A stretch of DNA of 64,000 nucleotides from Arthrobacter sp. MYb213 (GTDB lineage Bacteria > Actinomycetota > Actinomycetes > Actinomycetales > Micrococcaceae). A model generated the notes under the pieces. That model saw only the letters and a list, made by a program, of their open reading frames with translations, was not told where the DNA came from and did no database searches. The stretch spans positions 248,001 through 312,000 of the forward strand of contig NZ_PCQA01000001.1 in the NCBI RefSeq assembly GCF_002979915.1, read 5' to 3'. Made by a program: the position numbers and the translations under genes. Positions 3,613 to 12,273 of this stretch are shown one piece after another. Position 1 is the stretch's first letter; every line of letters starts with the position of its first letter.

Positions 3613-5832
3613 TTAAAACATTTCTAAAGGTTCGTCGGACAGAACAATGAGCTGACCAGTCGCACGCGTCATGCAGACATATCGGTGTACGAAGCCTGAG
3701 AAGCCGTCTCCAAAATTCTCGGGGCGGTTCAAGATGACTAGATCAAATTCGAGGCCTTTTGACTGCGTAGGGCTTAACGAGCGGATTCTTTCGGTCTGAG
3801 TAAACAGTGGGTCGCCAATGACGACGCCGACACCCAACGGGTTGTCACTCAGCCATTTCGCTAAGAGGTCAGCTTGTTGGTTTGGCCTGGCGTAAATCAC
3901 TGGCGCACCGTCGGTTCGAATCGAGCTTGGTACGTTAGCATCCGGTAGTTGTTGACGGATCACGCTTGCTGCCGCATCCATGATTTGTTGGGTGGTGCGG
4001 TAGTTCACGCTGAGCTTCGCTACACGGCAACGAGAGATTCCGGACCGCACCAAACGTTCCTCCCAGGACTCGGTGAATCCATTGGCGGCCTGTGCACGGT
4101 CTCCGACGATTGTCAGACTTCCCGACGGGCAACGCCGTAGCACCATGGACCATTGGGCCTCGGTGAGATCTTGTGCTTCATCGATGATGATATGTGCGAA
4201 TGGTCCTGTGAGGGATTCGGTGGGTGCCTCTGCTTCTGCACGCTGAAGAACGAGCTTATCTTGGAGATCTTCATTGCGTAATTGAGCGGAGAGGTCCTCC
4301 ATATCGTCGACTGCTGCGATCAGATCACCGATGACCCGCTGTATCATTTCACGCTCACCGGCAAGCAAGGCGTCACGTTGGTGTTTGGCAACCTCAACGT
4401 CTGGATCGCCTACAAAGAAACGCGCAGCATCCAACAGTGGCCCGTCCTCGACGCTCAACATGTGGGGTTCGTCAGATAATAGGCACTCTTGCTCCGAGCC
4501 GGTGAGCCATGGCGCACTGAAACGCAACAGTGCGGGGATGGAAAACAACGAGGTGATTAATTTGTGCGGATCCAGCAACGGCCAGTGAACTTCGAGGGCA
4601 TCAGCCAACTGTGCGTTGCGAGTAATCTCGGCATGAACCTGTGTCGCAGGTGCACAGCCGCTAGGTAATTGTTCGCTCAAGATTTCTTCCAGCACCTGAC
4701 GAATCTGGGATCTAGCTTCGTTGTGGTTGACTCCTGGATCCACCGAAGCCACCGCATTCATCCAATGCTGCACCGTCAAATTCAGTTCGCCCCAGCTAGT
4801 CTCAATGAGAAGATCGCACTCCGGGCGTTGTTCAAAAACCGACACTGCCCGTCGCACGGCGTCCACCATGCGATATGTAGACTTCAGCTGCGCTATAGGA
4901 GCAGATGATTCAAGGGTTGAATCGCCGATTTCCGGAACCAAATCGTTCAGGGTCGCGATCAATACATCTTCCTCGCCGAGGTTGGGCAGAATATCGGAGA
5001 TGTAGGCGGTGTACGCCTCGTGTGGTCCGAGAACCAATACCCGACCGCCACCGCTGTGAAGTTGTGCATCGGCATGCAGAAGGTATGCTGCTCGGTGCAA
5101 GGCAACCACCGTCTTTCCAGTGCCGGGGCCACCATCAACTACCAAAGCGCCCTTGGCGGAGCTACGAATGATGGAGTCTTGGTCCGCTTGTATGGTTGAG
5201 AGCACATCCTGCATTTTTCCTACGCGGTTGCTGCCAAGCGAGGCCAAAAACGAGGAATGTTCGTCTAAAGAGGTGCTTTTGCTCAGTTGTGTGAGGTCAA
5301 AAACTTCATCCCAGAAATTGACGATTTTCCCCAGCCGCCAACGGTAGCGACGCCGACTACTGAGCATATATGGCTGTGCGTGCGTGGCGGCGAAGAACGG
5401 TTCGGCCGCGGGCGCGCGCCAATCTACGAGTAGCTGTTCTGAATTTTCATCAGTCAGTCCTATTCTGCCCACATAGGTGCGTTGCCCGGTGGTCGCATGC
5501 ACCATGAAACCCAGACACGCCTCTGGACCCATTCGATCCAGGGCACGTAGACGACGGGCTAACCGTTCTAAATCCACGTCACGTTCCAAGGATTGCTGCA
5601 GGATCCCGGCGCGGTCGTGTCCGCGTTTGGCCAGGCGCTCAGAGACTTCACGGCGTTGCTCGGCAACCAGTCGTGCAATACAGCGAAGATGAATTTGGTC
5701 CTCACTAATTTCTGCTCCAAAGTCGGGGTTTTCCAAGCGATCTGGTAGCCGGAAGTAGCTGGGTGTCGAGTCGGTGCGCATAAACGGCATCTCCGGTCTG
5801 TAGTTGCTAAGGGGCGTGGAGCAAGTACCCAT
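3613..5832 (-). CDS. helR: HelD/HelR-type RNA polymerase-associated UvrD-like helicase
   Basis: 739 residues, close to the usual length of actinobacterial HelD. The order is an N-terminal alpha-helical secondary-channel arm (about 40-110); a HelD-specific segment with YVGRIGLTDE and LVDWRAPAAEPFF; Walker A GGPGTGKTVVALHRAAYLL (~234); a clamp-opening insert (~300-520); and the Walker B/DEAQ motif IIDEAQDLTEAQW (~549) with the motif VGDRAQAANGFTESW. Family members dislodge nucleic acid from RNA polymerase; the HelR branch also protects it from rifamycins. The ATG at 5832 fits a leaderless transcript, since TATAAG ends 8 bp upstream. A later ATG (MRTDSTP) is the alternative. The HelR subtype is inferred from the RAE-like site, not from residues I can verify. 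Confidence 0.82.
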   Translation of the reverse strand: MGTCSTPLSNYRPEMPFMRTDSTPSYFRLPDRLENPDFGAEISEDQIHLRCIARLVAEQRREVSERLAKRGHDRAGILQQSLERDVDLERLARRLRALDRMGPEACLGFMVHATTGQRTYVGRIGLTDENSEQLLVDWRAPAAEPFFAATHAQPYMLSSRRRYRWRLGKIVNFWDEVFDLTQLSKSTSLDEHSSFLASLGSNRVGKMQDVLSTIQADQDSIIRSSAKGALVVDGGPGTGKTVVALHRAAYLLHADAQLHSGGGRVLVLGPHEAYTAYISDILPNLGEEDVLIATLNDLVPEIGDSTLESSAPIAQLKSTYRMVDAVRRAVSVFEQRPECDLLIETSWGELNLTVQHWMNAVASVDPGVNHNEARSQIRQVLEEILSEQLPSGCAPATQVHAEITRNAQLADALEVHWPLLDPHKLITSLFSIPALLRFSAPWLTGSEQECLLSDEPHMLSVEDGPLLDAARFFVGDPDVEVAKHQRDALLAGEREMIQRVIGDLIAAVDDMEDLSAQLRNEDLQDKLVLQRAEAEAPTESLTGPFAHIIIDEAQDLTEAQWSMVLRRCPSGSLTIVGDRAQAANGFTESWEERLVRSGISRCRVAKLSVNYRTTQQIMDAAASVIRQQLPDANVPSSIRTDGAPVIYARPNQQADLLAKWLSDNPLGVGVVIGDPLFTQTERIRSLSPTQSKGLEFDLVILNRPENFGDGFSGFVHRYVCMTRATGQLIVLSDEPLEMF

Positions 5833-5839
5833 TCTGCGC

Positions 5840-5845
5840 CTTATA
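5840..5845 (-). promoter_or_regulatory. Candidate -10 element of helR (leaderless)
   Basis: On the minus strand TATAAG directly abuts the RAE-like palindrome. Its last base is 8 bp from the A of the helR ATG, so transcription would start at or within two bases of the start codon. The 22 bp separating the upstream TTGTAG from this hexamer is longer than normal, so the -35 region is effectively the palindrome itself. Confidence 0.45.
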
Positions 5846-5868
5846 GGGGGTCTTGCGGCAAGGCCCCC
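5846..5868. promoter_or_regulatory. Rifamycin-associated-element-like palindrome (RAE)
   Basis: Two 11-base arms, GGGGGTCTTGC and GCAAGGCCCCC, flank a single central G with one mismatch. The core GTCTTGCGGCAAGGCCCC closely resembles the RAE described upstream of rifamycin-inactivating and helR genes in actinomycetes (recalled consensus about GGGGCTTGCGGCAAGGCCC). It sits directly upstream of the helR -10 hexamer and also contains a -35-like TTGCGG for a rightward promoter. The match to the consensus is from memory. Confidence 0.7.
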
Positions 5869-5881
5869 TACAAGCTATATT
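5853..5881 (+). promoter_or_regulatory. Rightward sigma-A-like promoter overlapping the RAE
   Basis: TTGCGG (5853-5858), an exact 17-bp spacer and TATATT (5876-5881) form a good vegetative promoter. Its -35 box lies inside the palindrome, so helR and whatever is transcribed rightward may be co-regulated. The expected start is about 5888, which is the A of an ATG. Confidence 0.45.
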
Positions 5882-5887
5882 CTGAAA

Positions 5888-6076
5888 ATGAAGGGGATAA
5901 AAGTAGCTCTTCAAATGATGCGGTTCAGAATTGAACTTCTTGTGTACTTCGCACCTCCATCGCCAAAAATGTTCAAGCAATATGGCTATCGGCCTCGCAG
6001 GGCGGCTGAGGGAACCAAGGAGCTTAAACCGAGTCCAGATGACGGAAGTGATTCAGCTTTCATCGATGCTGATTGA
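5888..6076 (+). CDS. Possible small leaderless ORF divergent from helR (62 aa)
   Basis: An ATG 7 bp past a good -10 opens a 62-codon frame. The product has a hydrophobic/basic first half (RFRIELLVYFAPPSP), then RPRRAAEGTKELKPSPDDG and an acidic end (FIDAD). I do not recognise it. Codon use (ATA, AGA and AGG present; third-position GC near one half) is unlike the neighbouring housekeeping genes, so it may instead be an untranslated leader or chance. Its only support is the promoter geometry and its position opposite helR. Confidence 0.25.
   Translation: MKGIKVALQMMRFRIELLVYFAPPSPKMFKQYGYRPRRAAEGTKELKPSPDDGSDSAFIDAD
5923..5936. repeat. 14-bp inverted repeat upstream of ileS leader
   Basis: GTTCA-GAAT-TGAAC is a perfect dyad. 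It could be an operator, but no regulator can be named. Confidence 0.25.
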
Positions 6077-6077
6077 G

Positions 6078-6106
6078 TTTTCAGCGTGGTCAATACGCGC
6101 TAGACT
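6078..6106 (+). promoter_or_regulatory. Candidate promoter of the ileS T-box leader
   Basis: TTTTCA (6078-6083), a 17-bp spacer and TAGACT (6101-6106) would start transcription about 6112, a few bases before the first T-box stem. The -35 is weak. The spacing and position support it. Confidence 0.4.
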
Positions 6107-6112
6107 GGTAGC

Positions 6113-6334
6113 TACGCGACATTGATCCGGATATCACCGGGGAGTCCTTGGAAGAAGAATCAGGATGCAGCTTTGCACTTGATCCAGTAGAACCAAGCGG
6201 GACCAGCCCGTCATAGCTGATGAGAAGCGGTTTTTCACTTTTATGCGAGAGCATCACGGTGGGGAATAAGCGGGGTGGTACCGCGGCCAAGTGTCGTCCT
6301 CGTAGGCAAGTTTTTTTGACCCTACGCTTGAAGG
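6113..6334 (+). promoter_or_regulatory. ileS T-box riboswitch (ultrashort stem I, translational type)
   Basis: A T-box leader that senses uncharged tRNA-Ile. A short stem I, CCGG-ATATCA-CCGG (6127-6140), displays an ATC isoleucine specifier at 6133-6135. The conserved T-box, GGGTGGTACCGCGG, at 6273-6286 carries the TGG that pairs with the tRNA acceptor end, followed by the usual CGTCCTC. A hairpin (CGTAGG 6301-6306 with CCTACG 6321-6326) lies just before the GAAGGA ribosome-binding site. The tiny stem I and absence of a terminator before the gene match the actinobacterial class that acts on translation. Confidence 0.92.
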
Positions 6335-6346
6335 ATGGCCATTTCG

Positions 6347-9300
6347 ATGAGCTTCTACCCAAAGGTCACTACCGACCCGACCGGTTCAACCCCGGCCTCA
6401 CCGCGTTTCCCAGAAATTGAGAAGCGAGTCCTCGAATACTGGAAGAATGACGGCACCTTTCAGGCCTCCATTGACCAGCGTGAGGGTGAAGAGTTCGTCT
6501 TCTACGATGGTCCTCCTTTCGCTAACGGCCTGCCACACTACGGCCACCTGCTCACCGGTTACGTCAAGGACCTCGTAGCCCGCTACCAGACCCAGCGTGG
6601 CAAGCGTGTAGAGCGCCGTTTCGGTTGGGATACCCACGGTTTGCCAGCCGAGTTGGAAGCCATGAAGCAGCTGGGCATGACCGACAAACAGCAGATCGAG
6701 TCGATGGGTATCGACAAGTTCAACGATGCTTGCCGCACCTCGGTGATGAAATACGCCGATGAGTGGAAGCAATACGTCAACCGCCAAGCGCGCTGGGTTG
6801 ACTTCGAAAATGACTACAAGACCCTGAACGTTGAGTTCATGGAATCTGTCATCTGGGCTTTCAAACAGCTTTCAGACAAGGGCCTGACCTACCAGGGTTT
6901 CCGCGTCCTGCCATACTGCTGGAAAGATGAAACTCCACTGTCCAACCACGAGTTGCGCATGGACGACGATGTCTACAAGAACCGTCAGGATCAGACGGTC
7001 ACCGTCGGCTTCACGATTCTTGCCGGAGAAACGGAAGCTTCCAAGGCACTTGCCGGCGTTCAGGCCTTGGCCTGGACGACCACCCCTTGGACCCTGCCAA
7101 CTAACGCCGCTCTGGCCGTGCACCCGAAGATCGAATACGTAGTCGTGCCTGCAGGAGAGGCCGGCGTGAAGGCTTCCGCTGCCGCCGGACCGTTCTTGCT
7201 GGCCAAGGATCTACTTGGCTCCTATGCGAAGGATCTTGGTTACAAAGACGCGAAGGAAGCCGCCTCGGCGATCACCGCGAATTTCCAGGGTTCCGAACTT
7301 GCTGGGGTTCGTTACGAACCACTGTGGGACACCTTTACCGATACCGAAAAATACGGTACCGAAAACGCTTGGCAGATTGTCACCGCTGACTACGTCACCG
7401 TGGGCGACGGTACCGGAATCGTGCACCAGGCCCCGGCTTATGGTGAAGATGACCAGCAGGTCTGTGAAGCACACGGCATCCCGGTAGTGCTCTCGATCGA
7501 TGAAGGTGCAAAGTTCCTTCCACTGTTTGCTGGCGGGCCGCTGAACGACATCGCCGGCGTGCAGGTTTTCGACGCTAATAAAACCATCACGAACGTTCTG
7601 AAGGATGACGCCCGCTTGGTTAAGCAGGCCTCCTACGAACACTCCTACCCACACTGCTGGCGCTGCCGTACACCACTGATCTACCGCGCCATCTCCTCGT
7701 GGTACGTGGAGGTCACCAAGATCAAGGACCGGATGGTCGAGCTCAACGAGCAGATCAACTGGATCCCAGGCAACGTGAAGCACGGCCAGTTCGGAAAGTG
7801 GCTGGAAAACGCCCGCGACTGGTCCATCTCACGCAACCGCTACTGGGGTTCGCCAATCCCCGTCTGGGAATGCTCGGGCGTTGAGTGTACTCACCGCGAA
7901 GTCTTTGGCTCGCTTGAAGAGATCAAGAACTTCTTCGGACGCCTGCCGCTGAATCATGAAGGACAGCCAGATCTGCACCGCCCATTCATCGATGAGCTGA
8001 CCAAGGCTCACGAGGGTTGCGCCGAGGGTGGCACACTCTCACGCGTTGAGGACGTGCTTGACGTGTGGTTTGACTCAGGTTCCATGCCTTACGCACAGGT
8101 CCACTACCCATTTGAAAACGGTCAGTGGTTCGACTCTGGTCACCACCCGGCAGATTTCATCGTTGAGTACATTGGCCAGACTCGTGGTTGGTTCTACACC
8201 ATGCACGTGCTGTCCACCGCACTCTTTGACCGCCCTGCCTACACCAACGTCATCTCCCACGGCATTGTGCTCGGATCCGACGGACAGAAGATGTCCAAGT
8301 CCCTGCAGAACTACCCGAACGTCAACGAAGTTTTGGACCGCGACGGTTCCGACGCGATGCGATGGTTCTTGATGGCCTCACCAATTCTGCGCGGTGGCAA
8401 CCTGGTAGTGACCGAGCAGGGTATCCGCGATGGCGTGCGCCAGGTCTTGCTGCCACTGTGGAATGTCTGGCACTTCTTCAACCTGTATACCAACTCCGCG
8501 AATAACGGAGCCGGCTATGAAGCTAAGCGTTCAACCAGCTCTACTGACCCACTGGATCAGTACATGCTGGCGGCCACCGGAGAACTCGTTCGCGAAGTCA
8601 CCGAAGCACTGGACACCTACGAAGTATCCGATGCTACCGAAGCGGTTCGTCACTACATGGACACGCTCACCAACTGGTACGTGCGCCGTTCGCGCCAGCG
8701 TTTCTTCGACGAAGATACTCAGGCCTTTGACACGCTATACACCGCGTTGGAAACCTTAGTGAAGGTTTCGGCATCGCTGTTGCCACTTGCCAGCGAAGAA
8801 ATTTTCCGTGGGCTGACCGGGGAACGTTCGGTGCATCTGACCGACTGGCCAGATGCCAATGATTTCCCAGCCGATACGGTATTGCTGGAAACCATGGACA
8901 CCACCCGAAAGATCTGCTCGGTAGGCTCCTCGCTGCGCAAGGCTAAAAACCTGCGCGTCCGCTTGCCACTGGCAGAGCTGAAGGTAGTACTCACCGATGC
9001 GGCGCGTCTGGAAGGCACCTACGCTTCGATCATCAAGGACGAGCTGAACCTGAAGTCAGTGACCTTGATCGATGCTGCCGGCGTGGACACCGCAAGTTAT
9101 GGCATCAGCCAGCAGCTGGTGGTCAACGCTCGCGCGGCTGGTCCGCGCTTGGGCAAGAATGTCCAGCAGGCTATCAAGGGCGCTAAGTCCGGTGACTGGT
9201 CGGTGACCGCTGGCGTGGTTACCGCCGGTGGCCTTGAACTGGCCGAGGGTGAATACACCTTGGACACCGTAGTTGATGAGGCGGCCGAAATCGCGGCAGC

Positions 9301-12021: not shown

Positions 12022-12273
12022 TTAGAACCAGTCATCCAGGGAGTTATGTGAATGAGGTACCAGTGATGGGTTTGAAGCGGGAGATGAACCCCAAGAAGCG
12101 TGAGCCGAAGCCGGTACCGAAGACTGACGAATGGAATCATAATCGTCTTTAGAGAGCATGACGACAGATTCTTTGGGGGACCTGGAAACAGAGACAACTG
12201 CATGTTCGGTCACGACATTATCGACCAAACTAGAAAAATTCTTTAGTGCATCCTCATAGCTGAAATTCAGCAT
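12022..12273 (-). CDS. Orphan Phd/YefM-type antitoxin
   Basis: 83 residues. The N-terminal half (FSYEDALKNFSSLVDNV, then ESVVMLSKDDYDSI) matches the DNA-binding part of Phd/YefM antitoxins. After residue ~50 it departs from the usual helical neutralising tail and becomes Ser/Pro-rich, ending HNSLDDWF. A perfect AGGAGG lies 6 bp before the ATG. No RelE/YoeB or Fic/Doc toxin is adjacent, so it is an orphan or its partner is a new type. The nearest candidate partner is the small Cys-rich ORF directly upstream. It may act only as an autoregulator. Confidence 0.75.
   Translation of the reverse strand: MLNFSYEDALKNFSSLVDNVVTEHAVVSVSRSPKESVVMLSKDDYDSIRQSSVPASAHASWGSSPASNPSLVPHSHNSLDDWF

Follow-up and report, generated by a model that had tools for sequence, protein, structure and literature searches.

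The rifamycin-associated element (RAE) is a named 19-bp palindrome that precedes rifamycin-resistance genes, including helD and helR (PMC10719064, PMC8655204, PMC10194278). Rifampicin induces helD and helR, and deletion of half of the RAE abolishes this induction (PMC10719064). Upstream of helD in Mycobacterium smegmatis, the RAE overlaps the -35 element of promoter 2 (PMC10719064). The mechanism by which the RAE acts was stated as an open question in January 2026 (PMC12802891). The site described here is a palindrome of this kind between helR and ileS in Arthrobacter sp. MYb213, in a stretch of 64,000 nucleotides (contig NZ_PCQA01000001.1, positions 248,001 to 312,000; referred to as the window, with coordinates counted from its first letter). 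Comparison with other RAEs suggests that the RAE is the centre of a mirror-image promoter pair, one promoter facing helR and the other facing away into a non-coding RNA.

The RAE before helR

As originally predicted, a near-perfect 23-bp dyad is present at 5846-5868, with T5851/G5863 as its sole non-complementary pair apart from the central base. The 19-bp core of the dyad (5848..5866, no strand), GGGTCTTGCGGCAAGGCCC, has one mismatch to the RAE consensus used here; shuffling the window 100 times yielded 0.03 consensus matches on average at three or fewer mismatches. GGGTCTTGCGGCAAGGCCC fits the pattern GGGNCTTGCNGCAAGNCCC, which, with two mismatches allowed, has a single site in the genome (3.79 Mb), while a control search of the same genome with the reversed GGGNCTTGCNGCAAGNCCC gave no match. 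The predicted resemblance to an RAE is therefore borne out, and, as judged from its letters and its position, the palindrome is a genuine rifamycin-response element before the rifamycin-resistance gene helR. It is a 19-bp inverted repeat, it lies upstream of a gene whose product scores above the NCBIfam cut-off for HelR, as in relatives, and by conserved spacing only it would overlap the -35 of the proximal sense promoter. No match to positions 5400-6400 of the window was found in a plasmid collection.

The gene to the left of the RAE encodes the RNA polymerase recycling motor HelR (3613..5781, minus strand), with 901.9 bits to NCBIfam model NF041254 against a cut-off of 750. Its translation likely starts at ATG 5781, following a suitably spaced GGAG, rather than at 5832, as suggested by comparison with the closest relative (L008). 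The genome has a second HelD-like gene (on C12) that is 33% identical, and since the genome holds only one RAE, this second gene has none within two mismatches.

The association of the RAE with helR extends through the genus. A HelR-class gene was found in 14 of 18 genus genomes (E at most 1.5e-233), and the RAE is not missing from these homologous loci: all 14 genes follow one, which is exact in 10, has one mismatch in two (G008 and G016) and is half-degenerate in two (G009 and G010). In every one of the 12 loci with an RAE at no more than one mismatch, the element belongs to helR and lies between it and a divergent ileS within 1.5 kb, with several hundred extra bases in between in L008 and L013. 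Genus matches that resemble the RAE at one mismatch and have no adjoining HelR (L002, L014, L015 and L016) were left out of these counts. The half-degenerate sites of G009 and G010 (L019 and L023) have lost the upstream GGG of the RAE and kept both of the -10 elements described below, making them natural half-RAE variants. Across a family sample of 120 genomes, HelR at E <= 1e-120 occurs in 14, where the RAE, matched by coordinates, is exact in 11, has one mismatch in one and is half-degenerate in two. Weaker HelR homologues were not counted; G034, for instance, has no match at this threshold, yet its locus L058 has a HelR-like gene at an RAE. The true pattern was matched in 13 of 18, 50 of 197 and 30 of 396 genomes, versus one genome in each of the three sets for the reversed pattern.

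The -10 elements flanking the RAE

For comparison of the flanks, 183 exact RAE sites were collected from fetched loci, and 155 of these were oriented by the protein cluster downstream, giving 157 entries (helR 69, rox 55, arr 12, rph 12, rgt 9). The clusters were formed by single linkage and only their representatives were named by family models (NCBIfam, Pfam); the arr and rph representatives pass the curated cut-off while those of rox and rgt match the rifampin monooxygenase and Rgt models below it. Dropping near-duplicates left 137 entries, two of which are wrong-way copies of L116 and L184, so that totals for -10 elements are given for 135 entries while letter frequencies and hairpin figures are given for 137 and still include the two copies.

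In relatives, one -10 is conserved exactly 11 nt from the RAE on either side. At this offset, 117 of the 135 entries have a sense YANNNT, 132 an antisense TANNNT and 116 both (with the wrong-way copies in, 119 and 132 of 137). No other offset from 0 to 44 reaches more than 5 (antisense) or 7 (sense) of 137. The pair recurs in each cluster, sense and antisense -10s being found in 50 and 54 of 57 helR entries, 45 and 50 of 51 for rox, 11 and 11 of 12 for arr, 8 and 9 of 9 for rph, and 5 and 8 of 8 for rgt (n = 137). The key A and T of the sense -10 are present in 99% and 98% of entries. The antisense hexamer is fixed at T-12, A-11 and T-7 (96-99%), has T-8 in 72% and is followed by T-1 (74%), G+1 (91%) and G+2 (87%) at the predicted start. 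Positions u14 and u15 of the same hexamer are near random, which argues that its fixed letters are not merely shared through recent copying. On both arms the TTGCNG of the RAE lies 19 nt upstream of the -10, with a conserved G at -16 (96% antisense, 84% sense).

Applied to the window, this arrangement places the predicted helR promoter on the minus strand, with its -35, TTGCCG, at 5856..5861 inside the RAE and its -10, CAGAAT, at 5831..5836 after a 19-nt spacer, for a transcription start at ~5824. The -35 is assigned by its fixed distance from the sense -10 and by the position of the RAE over the -35 of M. smegmatis helD promoter 2 (PMC10719064). The predicted antisense promoter on the plus strand would have its -35, TTGCGG, at 5853..5858, the mirror position of the sense -35 within the RAE, and its -10, TATTCT, at 5878..5883 after an equal spacer, for a start at ~5890. 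The two predicted starts are 66 bp apart. A consensus scan of 5700-6400 gave no sigma-70-type promoter and no terminator (0.5 and 0.6 in shuffles), so that comparison alone points to the promoters. Thus the RAE dyad looks like it holds both -35s of two back-to-back, mutually exclusive promoters, and the divergent hub of the original prediction stands in the form of a conserved rightward -10 opposite the sense -10.

Many of the antisense arms also appear to carry a stop signal of their own. A terminator-like hairpin is found from +1 to +50 of the predicted antisense transcript in 40 of the 137 entries versus 3.0 in letter shuffles; one entry has such a hairpin when this stretch is read on the sense strand, one in the 50 nt lying further upstream, and none in sense +1 to +50. 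Of 56 hairpins of at least 8 bp near there, 38 begin from 3 nt before to 2 nt after the predicted antisense start. Under a looser definition, 86 of 137 entries have an anchored hairpin versus 30.6 in shuffles. Sorted by the direction of the upstream gene (crude open reading frame calling), hairpins are found in 42 of 71 divergent, 31 of 45 tandem and 6 of 10 uncalled cases.

The 28 exact sites to which no cluster was assigned serve as a further comparison. Both -10s are present in 20 and neither in 8, the latter from records labelled as other phyla or, once, just 'bacterium'. At least 14 of the 20 are labelled as actinobacterial genera and at least one (L135) as Stenotrophomonas. A known rifamycin-resistance gene lies on the CANNNT side in 16 of the 20; L111, L135 and L180 are too short to tell (L135 has TANNNT on both sides, and the side matching L139 was used), and L090 has a gene for a major facilitator superfamily (MFS) transporter. 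In L090 (Actinoplanes aureus), a complete module with both -10s and an antisense hairpin is found at 116-134 before the MFS gene (~230-1797; PF07690, 162.4 bits), and is possibly that of an RAE-controlled exporter. In L139 (Stenotrophomonas maltophilia), an RAE at 1939-1957 with both -10s precedes arr, and a hairpin and T-run face antisense; L135 (also S. maltophilia) has the same arrangement at 142-160, at the edge of the stretch, so that the module is present in a gammaproteobacterium. When the arr region of L139 was searched against plasmids, 1555 records matched at 60-80% identity, with no match covering more than 80% of the query; in the best 10 of the 1555 the match starts past the RAE, so the search is uninformative on the element. 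The antisense arm may face a gene in L116, where the RAE at 2661-2679 has rgt on its sense side and a HelD-like gene on its antisense side, and in L184, where the RAE at 2006-2024 has helR on its sense side and an rgt homologue farther off on the other.

A query for the skeleton of the module (both mirrored -10s around the inner TTGCNGCAA, with GGG/CCC left unspecified) matched 158 of 394 class genomes, and the reversed pattern matched none. Among the listed matches, 119 rows, which partly overlap the site collection, have C5 in 119, G15 in 118, GGG in 114, CCC in 97 and a complete RAE in 91; if the 8 letters each had a probability of 0.36, the expected number of rows with a complete RAE would be ~0.03. 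These comparisons therefore indicate that the RAE and its two flanking -10s form a single unit, with outer triplets conserved beyond the requirements of a -35.

Explanations for the module

The best explanation, in which we place moderate confidence, is that the site is the rifamycin-response promoter of helR, built as a mirrored, back-to-back promoter pair with a regulated switch. The identities of the RAE and of HelR, the -10s at mirror positions and the strand-biased terminators at other RAEs are read from the letters. From these we infer transcription of both arms, their mutual exclusion, an RAE-binding factor and the direction of the switch, as follows. The dyad would carry the overlapping -35s (TTGCNG) of two promoters of the housekeeping type, each with a 19-nt spacer. 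Transcription of helR would start at ~5824 on the left arm and that of a non-coding RNA at ~5890 on the right arm, and since neither polymerase footprint can do without the RAE, only one polymerase could be bound at a time. Elsewhere, at many RAEs, the 5' hairpin would halt the antisense RNA at once; this site shows no such stop, and its antisense RNA would continue in the direction of the ileS leader. Expression of helR would most likely be kept low by a postulated dimeric RAE-binding factor, together with polymerase drawn into the antisense arm, until rifamycin lifts this hold and allows the sense arm to fire. The dyad has more conserved letters than a -35 by itself would require, which favours a dimeric factor on the RAE, and since the dyad is centred near -33 of both starts, such a factor would most simply repress both arms.

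Several points weigh against this explanation. The RAE-binding protein is a postulate, for which the genomes were not searched, and the start positions of both promoters are predictions. A consensus scan of 5700-6400 gave no sigma-70-type promoter and no terminator (0.5 and 0.6 in shuffles), so that comparison alone points to the promoters. The sense -10 usually has C at -12, strict TANNNT being rare there (3 of 137), and the 19-nt spacers exceed the usual 17. The upstream box is pseudo-symmetric (CANNNTA), which makes a leftward reading possible. By the strict definition, 97 of 137 entries have no terminator-like hairpin, nor does the site in the window, and the looser definition leaves a weak strand bias, with a T fraction of 0.40 antisense versus 0.34 on the mirrored sense side. 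Finally, some genes of the HelR group had no identifiable RAE in a published survey (PMC8655204).

Among the rivals, the one that survives best is possible but unlikely. It takes the RAE and the upstream box as a single large operator bound by a rifamycin-responsive regulator, the box being a protein contact and the sense promoter the only one. The 19-bp dyad does have far more fixed bases than a -35 requires, GGG/CCC recurs in most skeleton rows although the query did not ask for it, and mirror conservation extends to C at u8 (96%) and G at d8 (84%). However, the fixed letters of the box are precisely the T-12, A-11 and T-7 of a -10, at a distance equal to that of the sense -10, and the box is followed by the T-1 G+1 step and, in the 40 entries noted above, by an antisense-facing terminator.

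By analogy with the dual promoters of Bacillus subtilis, polymerase itself could be the sensor, with no regulator: antisense cycling would block the sense arm and rifamycin-bound polymerase would free it. As an account of this site the proposal is doubtful. It would make good sense of a conserved antisense promoter that often has a built-in stop, and B. subtilis provides a precedent (PMC12802891). The occurrence of the module in the two Stenotrophomonas records, upstream of arr in L139 and at the corresponding site of L135, may mean that it works across phyla, which makes a regulator-free view attractive. However, the two arms share the -35 region, and an antisense polymerase arrested there would be expected to block the sense arm; inducibility was lost in B. 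subtilis when the promoters were brought so near each other that their footprints clashed (del17; PMC12802891). The shared footprints at the RAE thus speak against its being a direct copy of the B. subtilis alarm, and the conservation of GGG/CCC is left unexplained. Stated for RAEs in general, the idea would be that they are regulator-free sensors of polymerase activity, whose antisense arm keeps making an often self-terminating RNA of 25-35 nt until rifamycin halts this cycling, whereupon the shared -35 dyad changes occupancy and transcription of the resistance gene begins; this broader claim is tentative and also unlikely.

The pseudo-symmetry of the upstream box allows it to be read as the -10 of a second, upstream sense promoter, in tandem with the first as before M. 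smegmatis helD. The leftward CANNNT is well kept (C 88%, A 99%, T 99%) and two sense promoters are reported for M. smegmatis (PMC10719064). However, such a promoter would lack a conserved -35 upstream, positions u33-u41 reaching at most 0.18 bits; the reported promoter 1 starts ~20 bp upstream of the RAE (PMC10719064) versus ~6 bp for this -10; and the fixed A after the hexamer would have no explanation. A tandem arrangement is improbable for these reasons.

A hairpin in the sense leader RNA, acting as an attenuator, is very improbable and was rejected: an inverted repeat is able to fold in RNA, but arm positions 4/16 are Watson-Crick pairs in only 45 of 137 entries and G-U in 8 more, being non-complementary in most, and the predicted sense start is downstream of the palindrome.

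Scarcely credible is the reading first proposed for this site, a leaderless helR expressed from TATAAG and a small protein expressed rightwards from ATG 5888, and its parts were rejected for want of conservation. Its letters do stand in the sequence. TATAAG (minus strand, 5845-5840) is present and is not conserved as a -10, the consensus of the spanning sense positions d3-d8 being G,T,C,G,T,G and L008 having CTGCAAGG there. Likewise TTGCGG (5853-5858), a 17-nt spacer and TATATT (5876-5881) are all found, and it is TATATT as a -10 that is not conserved. The ATG at 5832 consists of the AT of the conserved -10 CAGAAT plus G, and L008, the closest relative, reads ATA at that place. The ATG at 5888 coincides with the conserved T-1/G+1 of the predicted antisense start, and in L008 the small frame reads ATG TAG.

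Neighbouring genes and comparison with described systems

The open reading frame at 5888-6076 has no NCBIfam or Pfam match, and the stretch is conserved among relatives in neither sequence nor length; the rightward RNA has no conserved reading frame across the 12 aligned genus loci. Further right, a probable T-box leader of ileS lies at 6113..6304 on the plus strand, as a full-length match to RF00230 (38.1 bits, E 5.9e-7) that is under the gathering score of 93, with no match in a gathering-level scan, and that is conserved in the 12 aligned genus loci. The TA-rich hexamer TAGACT (6101..6106, plus strand), conserved in the genus alignment just before the T-box, is the probable -10 of ileS's own promoter because a start from there would fit the T-box start at 6113. 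As ileS probably has its own T-box leader, preceded by a conserved promoter-like stretch, the rightward transcript of the RAE was rejected as the main means of ileS expression. Translation of ileS perhaps starts at ATG 6347 rather than 6335 (window 6335-6349), the upstream ATG being missing in most aligned relatives. Elsewhere in the window, a small open reading frame at 12022-12273 on the minus strand resembles a Phd/YefM antitoxin (28.2 bits to PF02604, narrowly short of its cut-off, 29.8).

The closest described elements are the RAEs known before helR/helD, rox, arr, rph and rgt, which this site resembles in its 19-bp palindrome, in the gene families downstream and in the predicted overlap with the proximal sense -35 (PMC10719064, PMC8655204, PMC10194278, PMC7283461). 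The consulted passages of the RAE literature make no mention of a mirrored antisense -10, an antisense-facing terminator or an antisense RNA at the RAE, and an earlier notice elsewhere is possible. Should the RAE indeed lie at the middle of two mirrored promoters whose antisense arm is conserved, the way in which it senses rifamycins would become directly testable, and any model of the RAE would have to account for an antisense -10 kept at 132 of 135 sites.

The rifampicin alarm of B. subtilis helD/pps also pairs the sense promoter of a resistance gene with an antisense promoter (PMC12802891). The alarm promoters converge, within 39 bp including both starts (PMC12802891), and do so without a clash of footprints, whereas the predicted RAE pair is divergent and back to back, its -10s lying around one shared RAE that would supply the -35 dyad of both arms. 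The bidirectional promoters described by Warman and colleagues (PMC12825309) are likewise pseudo-symmetric DNA to which polymerase could bind in either orientation, one at a time. Bidirectional promoters share a -10 and have starts separated mostly by 18 bp and commonly also by 10 or 23 bp (PMC12825309), whereas at the RAE the symmetric centre would be the -35 region, flanked by two separate -10s and by predicted starts much farther apart than in that class.

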